64,000 nt of DNA from a virus. The notes under the pieces are model-generated. The model ran no database searches and had not been told where the DNA came from. It was given only the letters and a program-made list of their open reading frames with translations. Position 1 is the stretch's first letter, and each line of letters opens with the position of its first letter. A program made the translations under genes and the position numbers. The stretch lies in the IMG/VR virus record IMGVR_UViG_3300000172_000001, positions 38,431 to 102,430 of that record; one strand, 5' to 3'. Of the stretch, positions 234 through 38,586 are shown piece by piece.

Positions 234-279
234 ATTTCTCCTTGTTTATTATTCTATTATCGTGACACATGTCACTGTA

Positions 280-360
280 CCTTCGGAGAGACTTGAACTC
301 TCAAGATCTTTCAACCAACGGTGTCTAAGACCGCCGTGTATACCATTTCCACCACGAAGG
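280..360 (-). tRNA. tRNA-Leu (UAG)
   Basis: Cloverleaf with anticodon loop CTTAGAC (anticodon UAG, reads CUA), a T-loop TTCAAGT and an extended variable region as expected for Leu. The first tRNA of the leftward cluster, six bases from the amber-decoding tRNA. Confidence 0.85.
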
Positions 361-365
361 CATTG

Positions 366-441
366 TGGCCGGGACAGGGCTCGAACCTGTAGCTGACAGG
401 GATTTAGAGTCCCCCGCTCTATCCAATTGAGCTACCCAGCC
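366..441 (-). tRNA. Amber-decoding suppressor tRNA (anticodon CUA)
   Basis: Canonical cloverleaf: acceptor GGCTGGG with CCCGGCC, D-stem GCTC/GAGC, anticodon stem GGGGA/TCCCT and loop CTCTAAA. U33 fixes the anticodon as CUA, which pairs with the UAG stop codon. The T-loop is TTCGAGC and N73 is A. The amino acid cannot be deduced; it is a class I tRNA, so Tyr, Leu and Ser are unlikely by bacterial rules. It matches the in-frame TAG in the metallophosphoesterase at 11535-12242. Suppressor tRNAs of this kind are known from recoded phages. Confidence 0.85.
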
Positions 442-2041: not shown

Positions 2042-2409
2042 TAATTATTTTTGATTGTTATCGTTATTTTTGTATCTTTGGGAATTAGTTCCTTTCCTGG
2101 GCACCATCTCGGACTTGGTATATCTCCAAAAGTAGTAAAGCAGTTTTCGCCTCCAATTTTTGGAAAAGTTGTTACCTTACAGCAATACTGCATGTACTGT
2201 ATTCCCTGCCCATTTGCAGTATATTCATGAGTATCTACCAAGTATTTACAACCGTTACAATACTGATCGTAGTTATCTATTTCCCAAATGGTAGCTAAGT
2301 CATATCCTTTACTTTCACAGGTAGGGCAAGGAATTGGCCACGGTACTAAACCTTTAGCGTCATATTTACCCTTACCCTCGCACGTTTTACAAACTATTTT
2401 TACTTTCAT
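2041..2409 (-). CDS. Cysteine-rich zinc-binding protein
   Basis: 122 residues with CKTCEGKGKYD and CPTCESKGYD, two CxxCxGxG-like units as in DnaJ-type zinc fingers, then further Cys at CNGC, CC and WCPG. Zinc binding is likely. The start overlaps the previous stop and the end overlaps the ATG of the SpoU gene by one base, so it sits in a translationally coupled run. No catalytic domain seen. Confidence 0.6.
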   Translation of the reverse strand: MKVKIVCKTCEGKGKYDAKGLVPWPIPCPTCESKGYDLATIWEIDNYDQYCNGCKYLVDTHEYTANGQGIQYMQYCCKVTTFPKIGGENCFTTFGDIPSPRWCPGKELIPKDTKITITIKNN

Positions 2410-2960
2410 TAGCAGTTACCTATAAATCCACGATCCTCTTGTAAAGAATCATAAATATCGGGAATTAACCCCTTTTTAAATCTTTGTTCTTTCCGATGAG
2501 CTAATACTACATTTACGGCTGCTGCTAAATTAGTACAGTGGGCCGTGGGTAGTACCACAAATCGATGACAATGTTGTAATGTTTTCCAATCCAGCCCACC
2601 ATCTTCTGGGCCGAATACATACACTGCGTTTTCAGGATGTTCAAAATCAAATAACATTTCAGATCCAGGCCTTAATTCTATTGCTACCGGAACTGTGTCT
2701 TCGCTAAAATTTTTCAATGTATGTTTTAACGTATCAACTCTATGCATAGATACTTCTTTGTATCCCTTCATACGTTCTTCCCTTGGAAGTCTATATTTTT
2801 CTGTCCATTCATCTGGATGCTGCACTCTATGTCCAGTCCAATAAACTTGCTCTGCTCCCCAACATGACGCTGCCCTAACTGTAGCTCCAACGTTAACTGC
2901 AAACTTTGGGTTTGTCAGCATTATTGCAGGAGATATACCTTTAATTCTTTTAGGCTTCAT
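2409..2960 (-). CDS. SpoU/TrmH-family RNA 2'-O-methyltransferase
   Basis: 183 residues. The three SPOUT motifs are present: motif 1 NPKFAVNVGATVRAA near residue 17, motif 2 VYVFGPEDGGL near residue 113, and motif 3 VVLPTAHCTNLAAAVNVVL near residue 135. This is the knotted SAM-binding fold that methylates ribose in tRNA or rRNA. The compact size without an extra RNA-binding domain resembles TrmL, which modifies position 34 of tRNA. Given the tRNA genes around it, a phage or host tRNA is the likely substrate; the exact position is inference. Confidence 0.8.
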   Translation of the reverse strand: MKPKRIKGISPAIMLTNPKFAVNVGATVRAASCWGAEQVYWTGHRVQHPDEWTEKYRLPREERMKGYKEVSMHRVDTLKHTLKNFSEDTVPVAIELRPGSEMLFDFEHPENAVYVFGPEDGGLDWKTLQHCHRFVVLPTAHCTNLAAAVNVVLAHRKEQRFKKGLIPDIYDSLQEDRGFIGNC

Positions 2961-3360: not shown

Positions 3361-4020
3361 CGAATAGAAGGGATCTTGGGGCTCTATTCGACGACTCTTC
3401 TCCAGTATTGCTACTGGGTAAAGGTGTTTCAAGTTGTTCAGGTCGCTCACCGAGGATCTCATGAATGTTTGGCGTTAGTTCGATCGGTGATCAACCCGAT
3501 AGCGTAGGCCCTCTCAACAGATCGCTGTGTGCGATACATCCTCTGTTCCAATCGTACATCCTCTGTGCCCTCAAGGCAACTTGAAAGTTTAATTAATGTA
3601 TATAAATAGTGTGCTGTTACGCCAAAGACAACTAGGAGGCACTCCTAGCTACAGCCCCCAATGCCTTTTCCCTGGAGGTAGATTTTATCCAACTGCTACG
3701 TCATGTTTAGAGCATGAGTTATCACTCTTTAAAAGATGGCTGCTTCTAAGCCTACTTCCTACTTATAATTTGGTCGCGAGTGTAGTTTATTACACTACAT
3801 TCCCTCTCTAACAAAGAGGTTCCTAGACTTAGACGAACTCGCGTTAATTGGTGGGGAAGTACAGGATCTTGCACCTGCGCTGATATGCATCAGCATATAT
3901 CCGGATAACTTCCCCTCTAGCAGTTAGGATAGGACTTAAACCTATATATGTTACTAATCGCCAGTGACTGTTCACGCCACCCGTTTTTCACATGTCTTAG
4001 TCTATTTGGACGACCTAACT
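3361..4020 (-). ncRNA. Large structured non-coding RNA candidate with 23S GTPase-centre-like segment
   Basis: About 650 bases without a credible protein gene. The GC content is higher than around it and there are many strong hairpins, including a terminal one pairing 3361-3368 with 3383-3390. On the minus strand, 3726-3760 closely matches the bacterial 23S rRNA GTPase-associated centre (helices 43/44); the core GGCUUAGAAGCAGCCAUC is identical to E. coli. A T-arm-like unit ATAGG, TTTAAGT, CCTAT lies near 3925-3941. Size, ornate folding and place beside tRNAs recall the phage-associated GOLLD and ROOL RNAs, but I cannot assign either. Limits are approximate. Confidence 0.55.
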
Positions 4021-4992: not shown

Positions 4993-5529
4993 TTATTCTT
5001 TATATAGTTGATGTCCTATAATATAGCCAAAGATACTTCCGTCGAGTAATCTTCCAGCCAACTCATACTCAGCTTTACAAATGTGTTCTCTAACTTTACC
5101 GCTACTTGCGTGAGTATACTCTGAAATCTTTCCTAAATCAATCGACTCTATAGCTGCGCATTTTTTAATTTCATCAATATCCTGCCACTTATGAACTTCT
5201 AACCCAGTATCATCATCGCCTACATAAATTACAATATTCACATTATAATACATAATCTGTATATGATTAATTAAACTCATCATATACGTATGGTTATAAT
5301 GTAATATAAAGTTATTTGGGAAAGCTTTAGCACACATTGCTACTTTGTCGTTGTAATCGCTTTGAAGAGGTTGTTCTATTTTAAAGGGATTAAATGACGG
5401 GCAAATAAGTAATAAATCTGAACTAGGGTATTCGGAGTTATATATTTTATTATTTAAGTATTCAACAGCTGCCATATGTCCCAAGTGAGGAGGATCAAAT
5501 GACCCCCCGTATATGTGAATTGTTCTCAT
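4993..5529 (-). CDS. nadD: Nicotinate/nicotinamide mononucleotide adenylyltransferase, NadD-like
   Basis: 178 residues. The N-terminal YGGSFDPPHLGHMAA is the class I nucleotidyltransferase ATP site (GxFxPxHxGH), and a C-terminal SSGKVREHI corresponds to the ISSTxxR motif. The enzyme joins ATP and nicotinate mononucleotide to make deamido-NAD. Start and stop overlap neighbours by one base in the order Nudix, NadD. With NadE, PncB and PncA in the same region it completes the Preiss-Handler route. NaMN versus NMN preference cannot be read from sequence. Confidence 0.8.
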   Translation of the reverse strand: MRTIHIYGGSFDPPHLGHMAAVEYLNNKIYNSEYPSSDLLLICPSFNPFKIEQPLQSDYNDKVAMCAKAFPNNFILHYNHTYMMSLINHIQIMYYNVNIVIYVGDDDTGLEVHKWQDIDEIKKCAAIESIDLGKISEYTHASSGKVREHICKAEYELAGRLLDGSIFGYIIGHQLYKE

Positions 5530-6122
5530 TATTTCATCCTTATATATTCGTAATTTGGAGATTCCATAAAAGATAATCCTGCTGCAAATGACAGAAGTCT
5601 GCTTGAGATTTCTACTTTTTTTGCTTTTTCAGAGGCTATGAAACTAAGTAAATTATAACCATTAATTAAGATTATTTGGTCTATATCTTCAAAGTCTCCT
5701 AACGACTGTTGCTCTGGTAAGTAACTTCCTAAAGCTCCCATTACTAAATGAGTTGCTTCATCTGACATTCCTGCGGTATTGATGGCTGCAGGAAATACTC
5801 TACAAGCCCCGTCTACTTCATATCCAGTTTCCTCCAACAATTCTCTACGCATAGCGTCTTCTGGAGTTTCTCCCTCTTCTATCATACCTGCTGGAAATGA
5901 CCAAATGTAGTTATCTAACGCAGGTCTCCACTCCTTAATTAGTAAGAATCTTCCAGAGCGGTCATGAAATACTCCCGCTACAGACTTTTGGTTTCCAATT
6001 CTTCTAACTATTTCCCAATCAGTAGTTTCTCCAGCTTCATTTTCTAGATTTAATGTTTCAGCTATTACATGTTGGGGCTCTATTAAAGCGTCTGATACAA
6101 ATTTAATCTTAATTTTTGGCAT
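5529..6122 (-). CDS. Nudix hydrolase, ADP-ribose pyrophosphatase-like
   Basis: 197 residues. A complete Nudix box GMIEEGETPEDAMRRELLEE runs from about residue 79, preceded by WRPALDNYIWSFPAG, a feature of the ADP-ribose pyrophosphatase (NudF/YffH) branch. Likely substrate ADP-ribose or another NDP-sugar, giving AMP and ribose-5-phosphate. It lies between nadD and nadE with one-base overlaps on both sides, so it is part of the NAD cluster and could recycle ADP-ribose made by host NADases. Substrate is inference. Confidence 0.8.
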   Translation of the reverse strand: MPKIKIKFVSDALIEPQHVIAETLNLENEAGETTDWEIVRRIGNQKSVAGVFHDRSGRFLLIKEWRPALDNYIWSFPAGMIEEGETPEDAMRRELLEETGYEVDGACRVFPAAINTAGMSDEATHLVMGALGSYLPEQQSLGDFEDIDQIILINGYNLLSFIASEKAKKVEISSRLLSFAAGLSFMESPNYEYIRMK

Positions 6123-6913
6123 TAGGCTATGTCCCTTAAAAAGCTTGGAATATTATCGCGTTTATGACGGCTATTGTTTATCATACTTTCGATATTATTC
6201 ATAACTTCTACAGAAACCGGAGATGGTACATTTTCACAGTCCATAGTACTCCACCAAATCAAATAAGAATCTAGTTCTTGGTATGTAAATCCAAATTCTT
6301 GTTCATCAGTTTGTCCTTCCCATAATCCCGCAGAAGCTACCGCATTTGCATATTCGTTAGGTAGCTCTAATTCTCTAGCTATTTCTCTAACTTCAAATTT
6401 GTAAAACTCTAACAATGGTTCAAAATCTACTCCACCGTCTCCATATTTAGTAAAGTACCCTATTTCGTATTCAGACTTGTTAGTTGTTCCTATTACGAGG
6501 TTATTGGTACTATTTGCTAGCAGGTACAGTGCAGACATGCGGGCCCGGGCTTTCATATTCCCTTTTGTGAGGGTAGTTATTGCCTCTGTTTGGATATAAG
6601 TCATACCCTCTATCATGGCGTCTACAGAAGTGGTAATATCTATACAATTAAGGTTTAATTGGAGATGTTTTGCAAGAGCTAGTATATTATCAGCTCCATG
6701 AAATAAATTAGATATTGAGGGAATAACTGTTTCATGGTAAGGCAGCCACACCGCCATAACCTTCTCTGGCCCTAAAGCTCTTTGAGCTAAAGCCGCAATT
6801 ACTGCGGAGTCTACTCCTCCAGATAATCCTATGACTACCCCATCAGCACCTGCATCTTCTACTGTTCTTTTTATAAAATCTTGTAAGTCAATTATGTCTT
6901 GTCTAAGTTTCAT
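6122..6913 (-). CDS. nadE: NH3-dependent NAD synthetase
   Basis: 263 residues. The ATP pyrophosphatase loop GLSGGVDSAVIAA lies near residue 29, followed by GTTNKSEYEIGYFTKYGDGGVDFEPL near residue 142 and a C-terminal R-H-K-R region, all NadE hallmarks. No glutaminase domain, so ammonia is the nitrogen source. It converts deamido-NAD to NAD, the last step of the pathway. Start overlaps nothing; its end overlaps the Nudix ATG. Confidence 0.9.
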   Translation of the reverse strand: MKLRQDIIDLQDFIKRTVEDAGADGVVIGLSGGVDSAVIAALAQRALGPEKVMAVWLPYHETVIPSISNLFHGADNILALAKHLQLNLNCIDITTSVDAMIEGMTYIQTEAITTLTKGNMKARARMSALYLLANSTNNLVIGTTNKSEYEIGYFTKYGDGGVDFEPLLEFYKFEVREIARELELPNEYANAVASAGLWEGQTDEQEFGFTYQELDSYLIWWSTMDCENVPSPVSVEVMNNIESMINNSRHKRDNIPSFLRDIA

Positions 6914-6930
6914 CTGTTTTCCTTTTTAAA

Positions 6931-7329
6931 TTAAGCAAAGCAGTTGTTTAATATGGTAACCGCCCTGTGTATGTTGTTATCTATGTAAGCTATTCCTCCT
7001 GCAGCATTTACTAACTCTACAGTAGCTTTTAAACTTTTGAGCTGTCCTTTATCAAATCCATCAGGCCTAACGTGCAATATAGTTCGTTTGCCGTGGGTGT
7101 GTGCGCTATTTACAACTTCTGCTATGGAAAATACTCCTTGCATTTCTTTAGAAATAAGATAAAAATGTACATTACATTTATTGTCTTTTTCATCCATTTC
7201 TATTGCTTGGCACGCCTCTGTCCAGTCTTCCACATCTGGATTAAAGTAGTCTATAGTTAGTTGAGGAATTATTTGATTCCTCCAGGTTGTATGTGCGCAA
7301 GTGCCTCCTAAAAATACTCTGTTTATCAC
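6931..7329 (-). CDS. Nucleoside 2-deoxyribosyltransferase-like protein
   Basis: 132 residues beginning INRVFLGGTCAHTTWRNQII, matching the VFLGG-x-x-x-x-x-W-R start of the deoxyribosyltransferase-like fold; DVEDW then FYLISKEMQGVFSIAEVVNSAH supplies the acidic and ES-type active-site region. Relatives cleave or transfer N-glycosidic bonds of nucleosides, and the fold is shared with TIR and CMP hydrolases. The start is GTG, overlapping the TGA of the small gene upstream. Its place beside nadE suggests a nucleotide or NAD-linked role (inference). Confidence 0.6.
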   Translation of the reverse strand: MINRVFLGGTCAHTTWRNQIIPQLTIDYFNPDVEDWTEACQAIEMDEKDNKCNVHFYLISKEMQGVFSIAEVVNSAHTHGKRTILHVRPDGFDKGQLKSLKATVELVNAAGGIAYIDNNIHRAVTILNNCFA

Positions 7330-7487
7330 TGTTCCTTTCCTTTTTTACTGTTTAAATCATCTTGGATATTGTTATAAGTTTTTAACAATTTAGCTTTTTC
7401 TTTGGCTCGTTTTTGATCATCTCCAATAGCCCATAATTTTAGAAACCCAGTCCATGTGACTTGTGGTTTTTCTTTCTTTTCTTTCAT
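7326..7487 (-). CDS. Small lysine-rich protein, 53 residues
   Basis: Begins MKEKKEKPQVTWTG behind a GAGG ribosome site and is rich in Lys and Gln, with a central helix. It ends in TGA directly followed by TAA, so the product is 53 residues if TGA stops and 54 if it is read as Trp. The TGA overlaps the GTG of the next gene. No family recognised. Confidence 0.5.
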   Translation of the reverse strand: MKEKKEKPQVTWTGFLKLWAIGDDQKRAKEKAKLLKTYNNIQDDLNSKKGKEQ

Positions 7488-7505
7488 TTATCCTCTTTGT
7501 TATTA

Positions 7506-7630
7506 GTGGCTAGGACAGGACTCGAACCTGCATACGCACCATGCGTCCACTATATAGTATATCTACTGAAGTGTTACTGAGTCGAACAGCCTACTACGCG
7601 AAGATGTTTCCCAATTACATCACCTAACCA
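7506..7630 (-). tRNA. tRNA-like gene with about 38-base insert in the anticodon region
   Basis: Both ends fold well: acceptor TGGTTAG/CTAGCCA, D-arm GATGT/ACATC with GG in the loop, a variable-arm hairpin ACGCA/TGCGT and T-arm CAGG, TTCGAGT, CCTG. Between D-arm and variable arm there are about 55 bases where 17 are expected, containing a second T-loop-like TTCGACT and short inverted repeats. No normal anticodon arm is found. It could be an intron, an insertion or a fusion of two tRNAs. Confidence 0.4.
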
Positions 7631-7639
7631 TTTTTTTTG

Positions 7640-7712
7640 TGGGCCCTGCTGGACTCGAACCAGCATCCTACACATTATGAGTGTGTTGCTCAGCCAATTG
7701 AGCTAAAGGCCC
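7640..7712 (-). tRNA. tRNA-Met (CAU), elongator-like
   Basis: Acceptor GGGCCTT/AGGGCCC, anticodon stem ACACA/TGTGT, loop CTCATAA, T-loop TTCGAGT. Fully paired first base pair, so not an initiator; Met or lysidine-modified Ile2. Confidence 0.85.
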
Positions 7713-7715
7713 TGG

Positions 7716-7805
7716 AGGAGAGGACAGGGATCGAACCTGCAGACCCCCTTGCGGGGGCGCACCGGTTTTCAAGACCGGCAGAATACCATTCTCTTACACC
7801 TCTCC
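7716..7805 (-). tRNA. tRNA-Ser (UGA)
   Basis: Type II cloverleaf: acceptor GGAGAGG/CCTCTCC, anticodon stem CCGGT/ACCGG with loop CTTGAAA, long variable arm CCCCC/GGGGG, T-loop TTCGATC. Confidence 0.9.
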
Positions 7806-7899
7806 GTAAAGAGCGACGCGATACTTTTTTCTGCAGTTATTATATTGCGCGCTCCCATCTCCTTCTGCTCTTACACGCAAGCGATGGCAGATGAGTCTG
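7806..7899. other. tRNA spacer, no gene seen
   Basis: Ninety-four bases between tRNA-Ser and tRNA-Phe with no plausible ORF or strong hairpin; presumably processed out of a tRNA precursor. Confidence 0.4.
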
Positions 7900-7971
7900 T
7901 GGCGAAAGATGGAATCGAACCACCGTCGCGTGGATCTTCAATCCACCGCTCTACCCCTGAGCTACCCCGCC
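7900..7971 (-). tRNA. tRNA-Phe (GAA)
   Basis: Anticodon stem GTGGA/TCCAC, loop TTGAAGA, D-stem GCTC/GAGC, T-loop TTCGATT. The acceptor uses three G-U pairs. The last ten bases of the upstream protein gene overlap its 5' end, which supplies that gene's TAG stop. Confidence 0.9.
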
Positions 7972-8465
7972 GGAGTATTTAATAATTTAATTGCTTGTTC
8001 TACATGCTCATCTTGTAGACCTAAATCTGTTTTTGTTTGTACTAGTCGATCCATTAAATGCTCCATGTCTGAGTCATCGTCCAAAATTATGAAGGAATCG
8101 GCTCTTTCGTGGTAATGTTCTTTAGAGAACTCAGGATCTGCGTCGTATTCGGCATTATGCTCATCAAGCCATTGTTGAATTTCTATGCCTCTTCTTTTAT
8201 GTAGTCTTGGGGTACTCTTCCCTATTACGAAGGGTAAATTGAATCCCAAGGCAGCAAATAGATGTCTAAACATAAATGAATCACCATGAAGTCTCCAAGT
8301 TGAGGATACTACTATTTGTGCTCCAGTTGCGTCAATTATTTGCTTTAAGCGTTCTACTAGCGTTATGTCTGGAAGCCATACATTTCCTAACTTTTCTTCA
8401 TGTCGTTTATGTACCGACTCACGATTATTGAGTACGCCGTCGATATCTAAAAATATTACTTTCAA
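7962..8465 (-). CDS. HAD-superfamily phosphatase of the HAD_SAK type
   Basis: 167 residues. Motif I is FLDIDGVLN (both catalytic Asp present), motif II VSSTWR, and the acidic motif IV FIILDDDSDM. The DIDGVLN plus SSTWR pair is characteristic of HAD domains associated with RNA-repair polyproteins. The start is TTG, fused closely to the next gene upstream. The stop TAG lies inside tRNA-Phe, using its conserved TAGCTC; amber readthrough would add seven residues before a TGA. Probably a 3' or 2',3'-cyclic end-processing phosphatase (inference). Confidence 0.7.
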   Translation of the reverse strand: MKVIFLDIDGVLNNRESVHKRHEEKLGNVWLPDITLVERLKQIIDATGAQIVVSSTWRLHGDSFMFRHLFAALGFNLPFVIGKSTPRLHKRRGIEIQQWLDEHNAEYDADPEFSKEHYHERADSFIILDDDSDMEHLMDRLVQTKTDLGLQDEHVEQAIKLLNTPAG

Positions 8466-8822
8466 TTATTCAATTCCTTCTTCTTTTTTCCATTTCTGGT
8501 AACGTTCAACTCTTTCCAAATATATCTCATACTCGGCTCGAGTTCCGCCTTTGCACCCTCCGTGACCGTCTGATCTGATCTGCCAACCAACAAAGGCATA
8601 ATGATCCTTGCATTTAGCTTCATATTTCGCTAATTCGTCTTCTTCAATAGGAAAAAAGTCATAAATTTCTGTTAAACGTTTAAAGGTGTAGTTGTCATGA
8701 GCGTTTGCTCTTGTGCCGTCTGAATATTTTATAGGTTTATAGCTTCTATAGCAATTGTTTGATTCGTCTAATTCCCATATATAGGAATCGTCTGGCCTGA
8801 CTATATATTTTGGATTTTTCAT
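8466..8822 (-). CDS. Hypothetical protein
   Basis: 118 residues, rich in Tyr, Asp and Glu, with a C-terminal charged helix (EIYLERVERYQKWKKEEG). The N-terminus IVRPDDSYIWELDESNNCYRSYKP looks like a beta hairpin. No recognised motif. ATG start; it ends directly against the HAD gene. Confidence 0.5.
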   Translation of the reverse strand: MKNPKYIVRPDDSYIWELDESNNCYRSYKPIKYSDGTRANAHDNYTFKRLTEIYDFFPIEEDELAKYEAKCKDHYAFVGWQIRSDGHGGCKGGTRAEYEIYLERVERYQKWKKEEGIE

Positions 8823-8846
8823 TTTTTAGTTCCTAAGTTAATTGGG

Positions 8847-8929
8847 GTGTCGGACGGGATTTGAACCCGCATGAGGAGCAACTCCAACTCGGGTCACAGC
8901 CGAGTGCATTACCAAATCTGCCACCGACA
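8847..8929 (-). tRNA. tRNA with His anticodon (GUG) on a Leu-like type II body
   Basis: Anticodon stem CTCGG/CCGAG, loop CTGTGAC, so GUG. Unlike normal tRNA-His it has a long variable arm GGAG-TTG-CTCC and a Leu-like 5' half. N73 is C, the HisRS determinant, but position -1 is T rather than the G that bacterial tRNA-His genes encode. The phage also encodes a Thg1 enzyme (34739-35434), which adds exactly that G. Confidence 0.7.
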
Positions 8930-8932
8930 ACG

Positions 8933-9016
8933 GGCTGATGGTAGGATTCGAACCTACGTGGACTTTCGTCACCTGATTACAAATCAGGACCTTTCGACCG
9001 CTCAGGTAACACCAGC
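8933..9016 (-). tRNA. tRNA with Thr anticodon (UGU) on a type II body
   Basis: Acceptor GCTGGTG/CATCAGC, anticodon stem CCTGA/TCAGG with loop TTTGTAA (UGU), D-loop GAGCGGTCGAA typical of Ser/Tyr tRNAs, and a long variable arm closed by GAC-GAAA-GTC. Thr tRNAs are normally type I, so the amino acid loaded is uncertain; SerRS recognises long arms rather than anticodons. Confidence 0.7.
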
Positions 9017-9052
9017 TCTATTTAAAAGTGGGGACGCTTGGCCCCCACGTAT

Positions 9053-10198
9053 TTAAACCTTTAATATTTGTTTACATAACGCAATCTCGTCTGGATCGCC
9101 TGTATGTTTTCCCGGGGAATCTGACAACTTAATAGCTGGTTCCCATACATCATTTAATTTAACAGCGTTAATTTTGATTACCATATTCAATGGTGTAACG
9201 TCTGTATCATTAGTGAAGTTGGTACCAATTCCGTAAGCCGTTTTAATGTGCTTATTCACTTCTTTTTCGATGTGTACCGCTTTTTCGAGATTTAAACTGT
9301 CTGAAAAGATTATTAATTTACTTTTCGGATCAATGTTTAAATGCTCATAGTGGTTAATAATTTTGTTAGCAAACACAAGCGGGTCCCCACTGTCTTGCCT
9401 CACACCGTCAAATAGTTTAGAATACTTCATGGCAAATTCTTTAAGAAAAACGTCTGTAGTAAAGGTATCTGGTAAAGCTGTTCCCAGACTTCCTTGAAAC
9501 ACTTCTACCCATTTCTCTAATACCATAGTAGTTGCCATCTTGTAACCGTATAGGCGTGATAAGACCATATATACTTCGTGAGCTTGTGTACCTGTTGGGG
9601 TTAAATTATATTTTTTGGCAAAATGAACATTAGAGGTTCCTACCAATCCATGCTTTAAAATATTAAGAGTTTTATCATGTACGTCATAAGAGTGCCTTCG
9701 TCTAGTTCCGAAGTCGGCTACGCTTAAATGATTATCGTGTATAATTCTCAATTTTTCTATATTCTGTTTTTCTAACTCATACAGCGGGCTTAATTCCCCA
9801 TTAGACATCTCTGAAATAATAGCCATAATAGGTACTTCCCACAGTATAGTCCTATACCAGGGACCTCTAATACATATCTCAAATTGATGTTGTTTACCGG
9901 GTTCATAAATTACTTCTACTTCAGAAGAGTCATACGCATACCCTTTTAAAAAGTCCCTATACACGGGAGTGAAATAATAACATTTCTTTTTTAAAAAAGT
10001 TGCTTCTGAATCAGTTAACCGTAGTGATCCCATTGCGTTAATATTGCTTATCAATTTTGTAGCAAACGAGTCACTAAACTCAACTGGAGTTCTCAATATC
10101 CACTTGTATTCTACTTCCAGGTTTGGAAATTGCTGACAAACAAACATTTGTTGTGTAAATTTATATATGTCGTTATCTAAAATTGAATTAATTAACAT
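9053..10198 (-). CDS. pncB: Nicotinate phosphoribosyltransferase
   Basis: 381 residues, full length for PncB. Motifs: DFGTRRRHSYD near residue 160, GTSNVHFAKKY near 185, GTQAHEV near 200 and RQDSGDPL near 270, all in the PRPP/nicotinate site. It makes nicotinate mononucleotide from nicotinate, PRPP and ATP, the first committed step of the Preiss-Handler route, feeding NadD and NadE encoded at 4993-6913. The C-terminus SDSPGKHTGDP matches the PncB tail. Its start overlaps the next upstream stop by one base. Confidence 0.92.
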   Translation of the reverse strand: MLINSILDNDIYKFTQQMFVCQQFPNLEVEYKWILRTPVEFSDSFATKLISNINAMGSLRLTDSEATFLKKKCYYFTPVYRDFLKGYAYDSSEVEVIYEPGKQHQFEICIRGPWYRTILWEVPIMAIISEMSNGELSPLYELEKQNIEKLRIIHDNHLSVADFGTRRRHSYDVHDKTLNILKHGLVGTSNVHFAKKYNLTPTGTQAHEVYMVLSRLYGYKMATTMVLEKWVEVFQGSLGTALPDTFTTDVFLKEFAMKYSKLFDGVRQDSGDPLVFANKIINHYEHLNIDPKSKLIIFSDSLNLEKAVHIEKEVNKHIKTAYGIGTNFTNDTDVTPLNMVIKINAVKLNDVWEPAIKLSDSPGKHTGDPDEIALCKQILKV

Positions 10199-37623: not shown

Positions 37624-38586
37624 TTAGTCAGAAAATAGTTTAGATTCGCCATAGTTGTTATACGTATTATCTATACTGTCATTATGGTCATAGTAGTCAT
37701 CAGCTGGCATTCCAACTGTTTTAATAAAAGCTTCAGATAGCTCAGCATGTGTAGGTATTTTAGGGTTTACTTCTAATGACCATAAGGGATATGACCACTT
37801 TACTAAACTTTCATCTGCAAATATACTACGTTTGTCGGTAATGTCGAGATTAGGTTTTAACCATACACGAGCATTATGTATATCTACGCGATCTACAATA
37901 GCAAATCTACCAATTGCTTCATCCATATTAGGAATCCAACAAGCTTTAGCTCCCAAATATTCATCTGGCACTTTAGTAACTATCTTTACTGAGTCACCAG
38001 CGTGTATATAAGACTCTAATAATATTGAGTAAGCTTCTTTTATAGAAAGGTCTTGAAGTACGGCGCCAAATACGCTATCTTCCTCTTTACGTACGTCTTC
38101 TGCAATTACTTCAGAAATTAACTTAGGAACTAATAAAGAAGTATAATTATTACTACTGCAGACGCTGGTAGTTTCTTCTAATTCTATCTTCTTTAAGCAC
38201 CATATAGGGAAATAGCATTTAACTGCTGCTAATATTGTTTCAGTTGTATGTGTAAATATGCCTCTTTCGGAATACCAAATTGGATCTTCGCATAAAGTTA
38301 CGCCATTCACGTAGGAACGTCTGTGCCCGAAAGGAGCGTTTGATAGTGTTTCAGGCGAGTCTATTATATGTATACCTTCAACTATAAATCTATGCCCTAT
38401 TGTTACATCCATTTCTGGTATCCAGTCCGTTGACCAGCCTAGCTTTTTACTAATGTCGCTAGTGTCTGAGGGGCTGTTGATTGTGTATGGATTTAGGACT
38501 TCTACTATATCTCCTGGCTTTAGATACGAACTTTGTAAAGTTTCATAAGCCTTTCTTAATATGATATTTTTGGGGGTGTTATTCAT
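37624..38586 (-). CDS. Paralogue family A member, two modules
   Basis: 320 residues. SSYLKPGDIVEVLNPYTI, LGWSTDWIPEMDVTIGHRF and YFPIWCLKKIE make copy one; SYIHAGDSVKIVTKV, ACWIPNMDEAIGRFAIV and YPLWSLEVN copy two. Low-complexity Asp/Asn/Tyr tail. ATG behind AAAGGAAACACAA. Function unknown; sequence suggests a small beta-barrel repeat. Confidence 0.55.
   Translation of the reverse strand: MNNTPKNIILRKAYETLQSSYLKPGDIVEVLNPYTINSPSDTSDISKKLGWSTDWIPEMDVTIGHRFIVEGIHIIDSPETLSNAPFGHRRSYVNGVTLCEDPIWYSERGIFTHTTETILAAVKCYFPIWCLKKIELEETTSVCSSNNYTSLLVPKLISEVIAEDVRKEEDSVFGAVLQDLSIKEAYSILLESYIHAGDSVKIVTKVPDEYLGAKACWIPNMDEAIGRFAIVDRVDIHNARVWLKPNLDITDKRSIFADESLVKWSYPLWSLEVNPKIPTHAELSEAFIKTVGMPADDYYDHNDSIDNTYNNYGESKLFSD

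Follow-up and report, generated by a model that had tools for sequence, protein, structure and literature searches.

Can a phage carry a functional centre of the ribosome as a separate RNA? This question is raised by a short segment on the minus strand of a 64,000-nt stretch of viral DNA (positions 38,431 to 102,430 of IMG/VR record IMGVR_UViG_3300000172_000001; hereafter, the window). An initial annotation had noticed here a near-exact match to bacterial 23S rRNA around helices 43 and 44, in the GTPase-associated centre (GAC), and had proposed that a phage non-coding RNA presents it as a decoy for L11, elongation factors or RelA. The match is confirmed: GGAAGTAGGCTTAGAAGCAGCCATCTTTTAAAGAG, located at 3725-3759 (minus strand) and equivalent to 23S rRNA 1055-1089, is identical to the common bacterial sequence GGATGTTGGCTTAGAAGCAGCCATCATTTAAAGAG in 32 of 35 positions. 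A pattern with the variable positions masked matched the window only once, with 0 matches expected from 100 shuffles even when 3 mismatches were allowed. The segment contains the H43 hairpin, the A1067-type loop (the A1067 equivalent is base 3747) and the UUUAAAG(A) core.

The observation is real and larger than first reported, as these 35 nt are only the 5' half of the domain. The 3' half, UUUGGCGUAACAGCACACU, lies about 100 nt downstream, with the equivalent of A1095 at base 3618. It fits the family pattern described below with 0 mismatches, where 0.01 chance matches would be expected with up to 3 mismatches. Both halves are enclosed by a closing stem of 9 bp in the register of rRNA helix 42 (Table 1). 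The best explanation is a separate non-coding RNA of the phage, some 110-430 nt long, with its core at 3601-3767 on the minus strand. The earlier suggestion of a phage RNA with the GAC fold is thus supported beyond what was claimed, since the RNA reproduces the whole 58-nt domain, with covariation.

Table 1. Elements of the GAC RNA and its immediate neighbour in the window
Feature	Position	Strand	Basis
5' half of GAC mimic, rRNA 1055-1089	3725-3759	minus	Pattern match and covariation of 1057-1081, 1058-1080 and 1082-1086 (n=120)
3' half of GAC mimic, rRNA about 1090-1105, H44 end loop	3608-3626	minus	Same order and strand in 138 viral RNAs
Closing stem, 5' strand, H42 register 1055-1047	3759-3767	minus	Pairs with 3601-3609; family covariation in the same register
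Closing stem, 3' strand	3601-3609	minus	Family covariation; folding of the window sequence
Insert inside H44	3627-3723	minus	97 nt in the window; site fixed between rRNA 1090 and 1091
Insert base stem, 5' strand GAUAAC	3718-3723	minus	Pairs with GUUGUC, 3627-3632
Insert base stem, 3' strand GUUGUC	3627-3632	minus	Family covariation
Degenerate tRNA-like gene directly upstream of the GAC RNA	3771-3843	minus	Read from sequence

Collection of the RNA family

Viral contigs were scanned with the 18-nt core GGCTTAGAAGCAGCCATC, which returned more than 119 DNA stretches, where an estimated two or so would be expected by chance; the flanks of these matches are not rRNA. Downstream of the 5' cores a second shared block was found, with the consensus UUUGGCGUARYAGCACACC, which is the other half of the GAC. 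A second scan with this 3' block alone gave further loci, and the 5' half was present upstream in most of them. Near-duplicates were removed so that inserts had under 30% of their 10-mers in common, leaving 138 distinct viral RNAs with both halves in order and on the same strand. Of these, 120 aligned to E. coli 23S positions with an ungapped core and served as the covariation set. Chance matches to such short patterns do occur: 12 of 16 genome-contig matches had both halves, and 4 lacked the 5' half.

Covariation and fold

The 120 sequences were subjected to an unsupervised mutual-information scan with average-product correction (APC). The top 14 pairs comprised ten rRNA pairs (1058-1080, 1051-1108, 1052-1107, 1053-1106, 1082-1086, 1050-1109, 1049-1110, 1054-1105, 1057-1081 and 1055-1104) and four pairs of the insert base stem; no other pair exceeded z 2. 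Positions 1051-1055/1104-1108 of H42 were paired in 105-119 of the 120 sequences, mostly by three or four pair types, with z values of 3.6-11.0, and the closing stem was 91% paired, compared with 36-47% when slid and 55% when shuffled. Pair 1058-1080 appears as GC in 44 sequences, UA in 41, AU in 25 and CG in 6, and the tertiary pair 1082-1086 as UA in 51, CG in 39 and AU in 15 (n=120 in both cases). For the latter, two slid positions also score highly, so its support comes mainly from the pair types and the shuffles. U1060 occurs together with A1088 in 119/120.

Independently, the 5' half of three isolate phages is picked up by Infernal LSU models at sub-threshold scores (L236, E 0.0006; L233, E 0.004; L234, E 0.05). 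Taken together, the covariation of stems and tertiary pair and these model matches indicate that the GAC fold, including H42, H43 and the lone tertiary pair 1082-1086, is present in the phage RNA.

The insert within helix 44

The distal loop had been described earlier as replaced by GAGU-GAUA-ACUC. This is wrong: across the relatives GAGU corresponds to rRNA 1087-1090, and a covarying insert stem begins after it. Plain energy folding prefers the local GAGU-GAUA-ACUC hairpin; the family evidence favours the insert stem instead, whose base (i0-i2 with j-1 to j-3) is 95% paired across the family versus 53% in shuffled sequences. The insert base stem is not the free-energy minimum of the window sequence and is about 12 kcal/mol less stable by energies that ignore tertiary contacts and L11.

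Across the family, insert length ranges from 24 to 515 nt (median 148), with extremes that stem from poor 3' matches. A structured insert of at least 70 nt is found in almost all members, and the inserts fall into classes marked by their own shared motifs, such as CCGGARACGGUAAGG and GACCCUUAGAG; the GAC part stays constant while the insert varies. An AGUACGNRAGGR hairpin similar to the sarcin-ricin loop is found in the long-insert RNAs L032, L053, L198, L204 and L212, with stems that differ in sequence and still pair. In L198 and L212, 13 nt of the hairpin are identical to the 23S sarcin-ricin loop; chance matches of 13 nt to 23S are common in shuffles, and the hairpin of this subclass is possibly convergent. 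Apart from it, other 23S segments occur within the inserts at shuffle level only.

Distribution and genomic context

Both halves were confirmed by sequence in the isolates GAP32, CBB, BF, XacN1, XaC1, pf16, Milchi, UNO-G1W1 and Aeromonas 4_4572, and BLAST placed both halves also in Astolliot, Kaldavass, XbC2 and Erwinia SNUABM jumbo phages. The RNA is unannotated in the records opened; in Milchi and UNO-G1W1, only small hypothetical ORFs are given there, on the opposite strand. A copy with both halves also lies inside a dense tRNA array of a 909,734-bp megaplasmid of Pseudomonas sp. FeN3W (L237; CP136011).

A tRNA gene is located within 500 bp of 79 of the 138 RNAs. Within 3 kb of the RNAs there are 633 tRNA genes, every one on the same strand as the RNA, and transcription therefore probably runs in that sense. 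A terminator-like T-run follows directly on the closing stem in GAP32 and BF, and a run of five T follows within 29 nt of the RNA in 20/138. Promoter-like boxes were not enriched upstream of the RNA. A boxA-like GTTCTTTRA was found within 150 nt upstream in 8/135 loci, at a distance of up to about 40 nt in seven, compared with 2/382 control stretches, and recalls rRNA antitermination. In L034, L053, L117, L162, L180, L198 and L220, it stands about 17-40 nt upstream, as in rRNA leaders. One phage (L038) has two 5' cores, at 5138 and 5456, which are 318 nt apart and each just past a tRNA-like end.

Comparison with known RNA families

In Rfam 15, only tRNAs exceeded threshold in the window region, and up to E 10 just tRNA and weak chance matches were obtained. 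No family reached threshold on the RNA in the window and 20 related loci, GOLLD and ROOL, which had been raised earlier as candidates, included; in six isolate-phage loci the RNA gave only sub-threshold LSU matches. Identity with a bacterial LSU rRNA gene was not found, as the LSU match covers about 48-52 positions below the gathering score and is flanked by tRNA genes and phage ORFs. Literature searches of open-access papers returned no account of a phage GAC or L11 mimic.

Among the closest known systems is the 23S GAC itself (H42-H44, E. coli 1051-1108; the L11/thiostrepton site), with which the RNA shares the core sequence, the pair register, pair 1082-1086 and U1060/A1088. Unlike it, the phage RNA is free-standing, carries an insert of 24-515 nt between 1090 and 1091, has A rather than U at 1101, shows relaxed exposed loop bases, and is closed by a stem that bears no relation to the remainder of domain II. 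The 58-nt L11-binding GAC fragment used in vitro is the same domain outside the ribosome, which folds and binds L11 (PMC10161774); the phage version differs from it in being natural and in its inserted domain. GOLLD and ROOL, large ornate RNAs near tRNA islands, are likewise phage-encoded, structured, non-coding and found in tRNA arrays. However, the GAC RNA is smaller and matches neither model, and its rRNA module is not reported for GOLLD or ROOL in PMC12286853. Leaders of ribosomal-protein mRNAs (e.g. L1, L10) also imitate a protein-binding site of rRNA, but the present RNA is phage-borne and is not the leader of a ribosomal-protein gene; in the window, it is followed by an unknown ORF and a SpoU methylase. 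No L11-binding leader was found in the review PMC10931766.

Conserved core and drifting surface

To tell selection for L11 binding apart from selection for contact with factors or tRNA, conservation in each half was counted only in loci found via the other half (55 for the 5' half, 65 for the 3' half). U1060, U1066, C1072, A1077, A1084 and A1085 of the 5' core are present in 55/55, and G1093, U1094 and A1098 of the 3' core in 65/65; in halves not used for selection, U1060, A1088, A1084, A1085, U1094 and A1098 are invariant save single cases. Exposed bases drift: A1067 is A in 40/55, and the rRNA base is kept at G1068 in 43/55, at A1070 in 44/55, at A1095 in 59/65 and at A1096 in 46/65. In bacterial rRNA, by contrast, none of these five positions varies among the 14 distinct sequences compared, although that sample is modest and comes from two phyla. 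The L11-binding core is essentially invariant and the factor- and tRNA-facing bases vary, unlike in rRNA.

Position 1061 is U in 66/120, and most members have U, G or C there, not A. Work on the free RNA uses a variant with A put in at 1061, and stabilisation of the fold by L11 has been reported (PMC10161774), so that the prevailing U suits an RNA that folds with L11. The closing stem reads as a plain helix in which nothing resembles the L10/L12 stalk site. A fixed core, a drifting exposed face, U1061 and a plain closing stem all point to L11 itself as the probable partner.

Possible function

Capture of host L11 by a free-standing copy of the GAC, most likely leading to a loss of RelA activation, is the best-supported form of the decoy idea, and on the conservation pattern it appears plausible, somewhat short of probable. 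The other part of the earlier proposal, a direct decoy for elongation factors or RelA, is less likely because A1067, G1068, A1070 and A1096 have drifted and the L11-binding core has not. The RNA folds as a free-standing 23S GAC with a variable structured domain within helix 44. If expressed in infected cells, it would be bound by host L11 (uL11) through the C-terminal domain, in the manner of rRNA, and L11 would be withheld from ribosomes. Host ribosomes poor in L11 would then not switch RelA on when infection drains charged tRNA, and in this relaxed state translation could continue for a phage running its own tRNA set. L11 limitation affects termination, and altered termination by release factor 1 may be a side effect. 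Counting against capture, L11 on mature ribosomes may exchange too slowly for an infecting phage to strip it. A search of 50 carrier records gave no phage L11 gene (PF00298), and therefore the partner would be the L11 of the host. L11, and above all its N-terminus, is needed for RelA activation (PMC4974054; PMC5365698).

A broader version is possible and should be held with more reserve: a dedicated RNA decoy in the phages of several host groups may capture L11, stripping the ribosome of its RelA-activating part and shifting termination, with exchangeable inserts adding functions, including a two-site factor trap in the sarcin-ricin-like subclass. If true, phage tRNA arrays, L11 and the stringent response would be joined by a concrete and quickly testable link. 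To our knowledge, it would also be the first virus-made RNA copy of a functional centre of the ribosome. In addition, a widespread unannotated RNA family is added to phage genomes already grown in the laboratory.

The main rival arises from the insert. About 58 nt would be enough for a pure L11 sponge, yet structured inserts are near-universal, so the insert must do something; since no member lacks it and it differs by class, a particle that depends on L11 and whose insert does the work has to be considered. The GAC would then serve to dock L11 as the protein cofactor of an RNA-protein particle, the insert would work on, for example, tRNAs, ribosomes or host RNAs, and L11 depletion would be incidental. 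The one exact insertion site, its own covarying base stem, the motif-sharing classes and the constancy of the GAC beside a varying insert agree with such a particle, as does the proposed binding of ribosomal protein RpsU by OLE RNA (PMC12286853). However, no catalytic or target-recognition element was found in the inserts, which are too different between classes for an obvious single shared activity, and this explanation is considered rather unlikely.

A use of the GAC fold as a stable tertiary building block of a larger phage RNA, without any ribosomal partner, is clearly less likely again. The 58-nt domain does fold alone with magnesium (PMC10161774), and particles made of RNA alone are known from other large phage RNAs close to tRNA islands (PMC12286853), but position 1061 is U, G or C in most members instead of the A used in work on the free RNA, and the conserved detail goes beyond a generic need. 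Slightly more doubtful still is the idea that translation factors, tRNA or RelA are themselves the target of the decoy: the A1067/A1095 surface, joined in one subclass by the sarcin-ricin-like hairpin, would be presented to EF-G, EF-Tu or the elbow of tRNA. In its favour, 99/120 sequences retain both A1067 and A1095, A1067 in the RelA complex makes a stacking contact with the tRNA elbow (PMC5365698), and five RNAs carry the AGUACGNRAGGR hairpin; against this, the varying bases are the exposed ones, the factor-recruiting stalk site appears to be missing from the closing stem, and hairpins with a bulged G and a GNRA loop arise often.

A cis-acting leader, through which L11 binding would control a downstream phage gene, is very improbable. 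Mimicry of rRNA by ribosomal-protein leaders is established (PMC10931766), but the downstream neighbours vary and are often tRNA (within 300 nt in 61/138), and a five-T run follows closely in some RNAs, as noted above. Host rRNA contamination or misassembly, named in the initial annotation, is refuted for this family and has almost no probability left, as the flanks, 3' half, insert and A at 1101 differ from rRNA, the stems covary, the layout recurs in 138 distinct viral sequences and complete isolate genomes carry the RNA; it explains only several matches in phage records. Genuine bacterial 23S, likely from contamination or misassembly, is held by MZ092003 (Paenibacillus phage Pd_22F) and by short OR-numbered phage records, and Pd_22F was a false case of a carrier.

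Neighbouring elements in the window

The tRNA-like gene directly upstream has a 7-bp acceptor stem, an ACCA end and 5-bp anticodon and T stems, and received no call from ARAGORN; the GAC RNA could acquire its 5' end when the 3' end of this tRNA-like element is trimmed. Just downstream of the RNA, 10-nt inverted arms (3427-3436 and 3577-3586, minus strand) surround 140 nt in which AGAGGATGTA occurs twice, and 3427-3586 is a possible second structured non-coding RNA.

Two ORFs downstream of the RNA, a 2'-O-methylase of the SpoU family is encoded at 2409-2960 (minus strand). This family includes the A1067 methylase of thiostrepton producers. As a dedicated modifier of the GAC RNA it was rejected, and it is probably a tRNA enzyme, because no relative occurs near any other copy of the RNA.

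A tRNA with anticodon CTA (amber suppressor type) adjoins a tRNA-Leu in the window (365-441 and 277-361, minus strand), and GAP32 also has an anticodon-CTA tRNA near its copy of the RNA. Across the family, 10 loci had this anticodon, a number that does not clearly exceed that of other rare anticodons, and a link to amber-suppressor tRNAs was rejected. Finally, 4993-10198 (minus strand) holds an apparent NAD-salvage set, consisting of a cytidylyltransferase-like protein, a NUDIX protein, NAD synthetase and nicotinamide phosphoribosyltransferase, which possibly answers NAD-depleting host defences.
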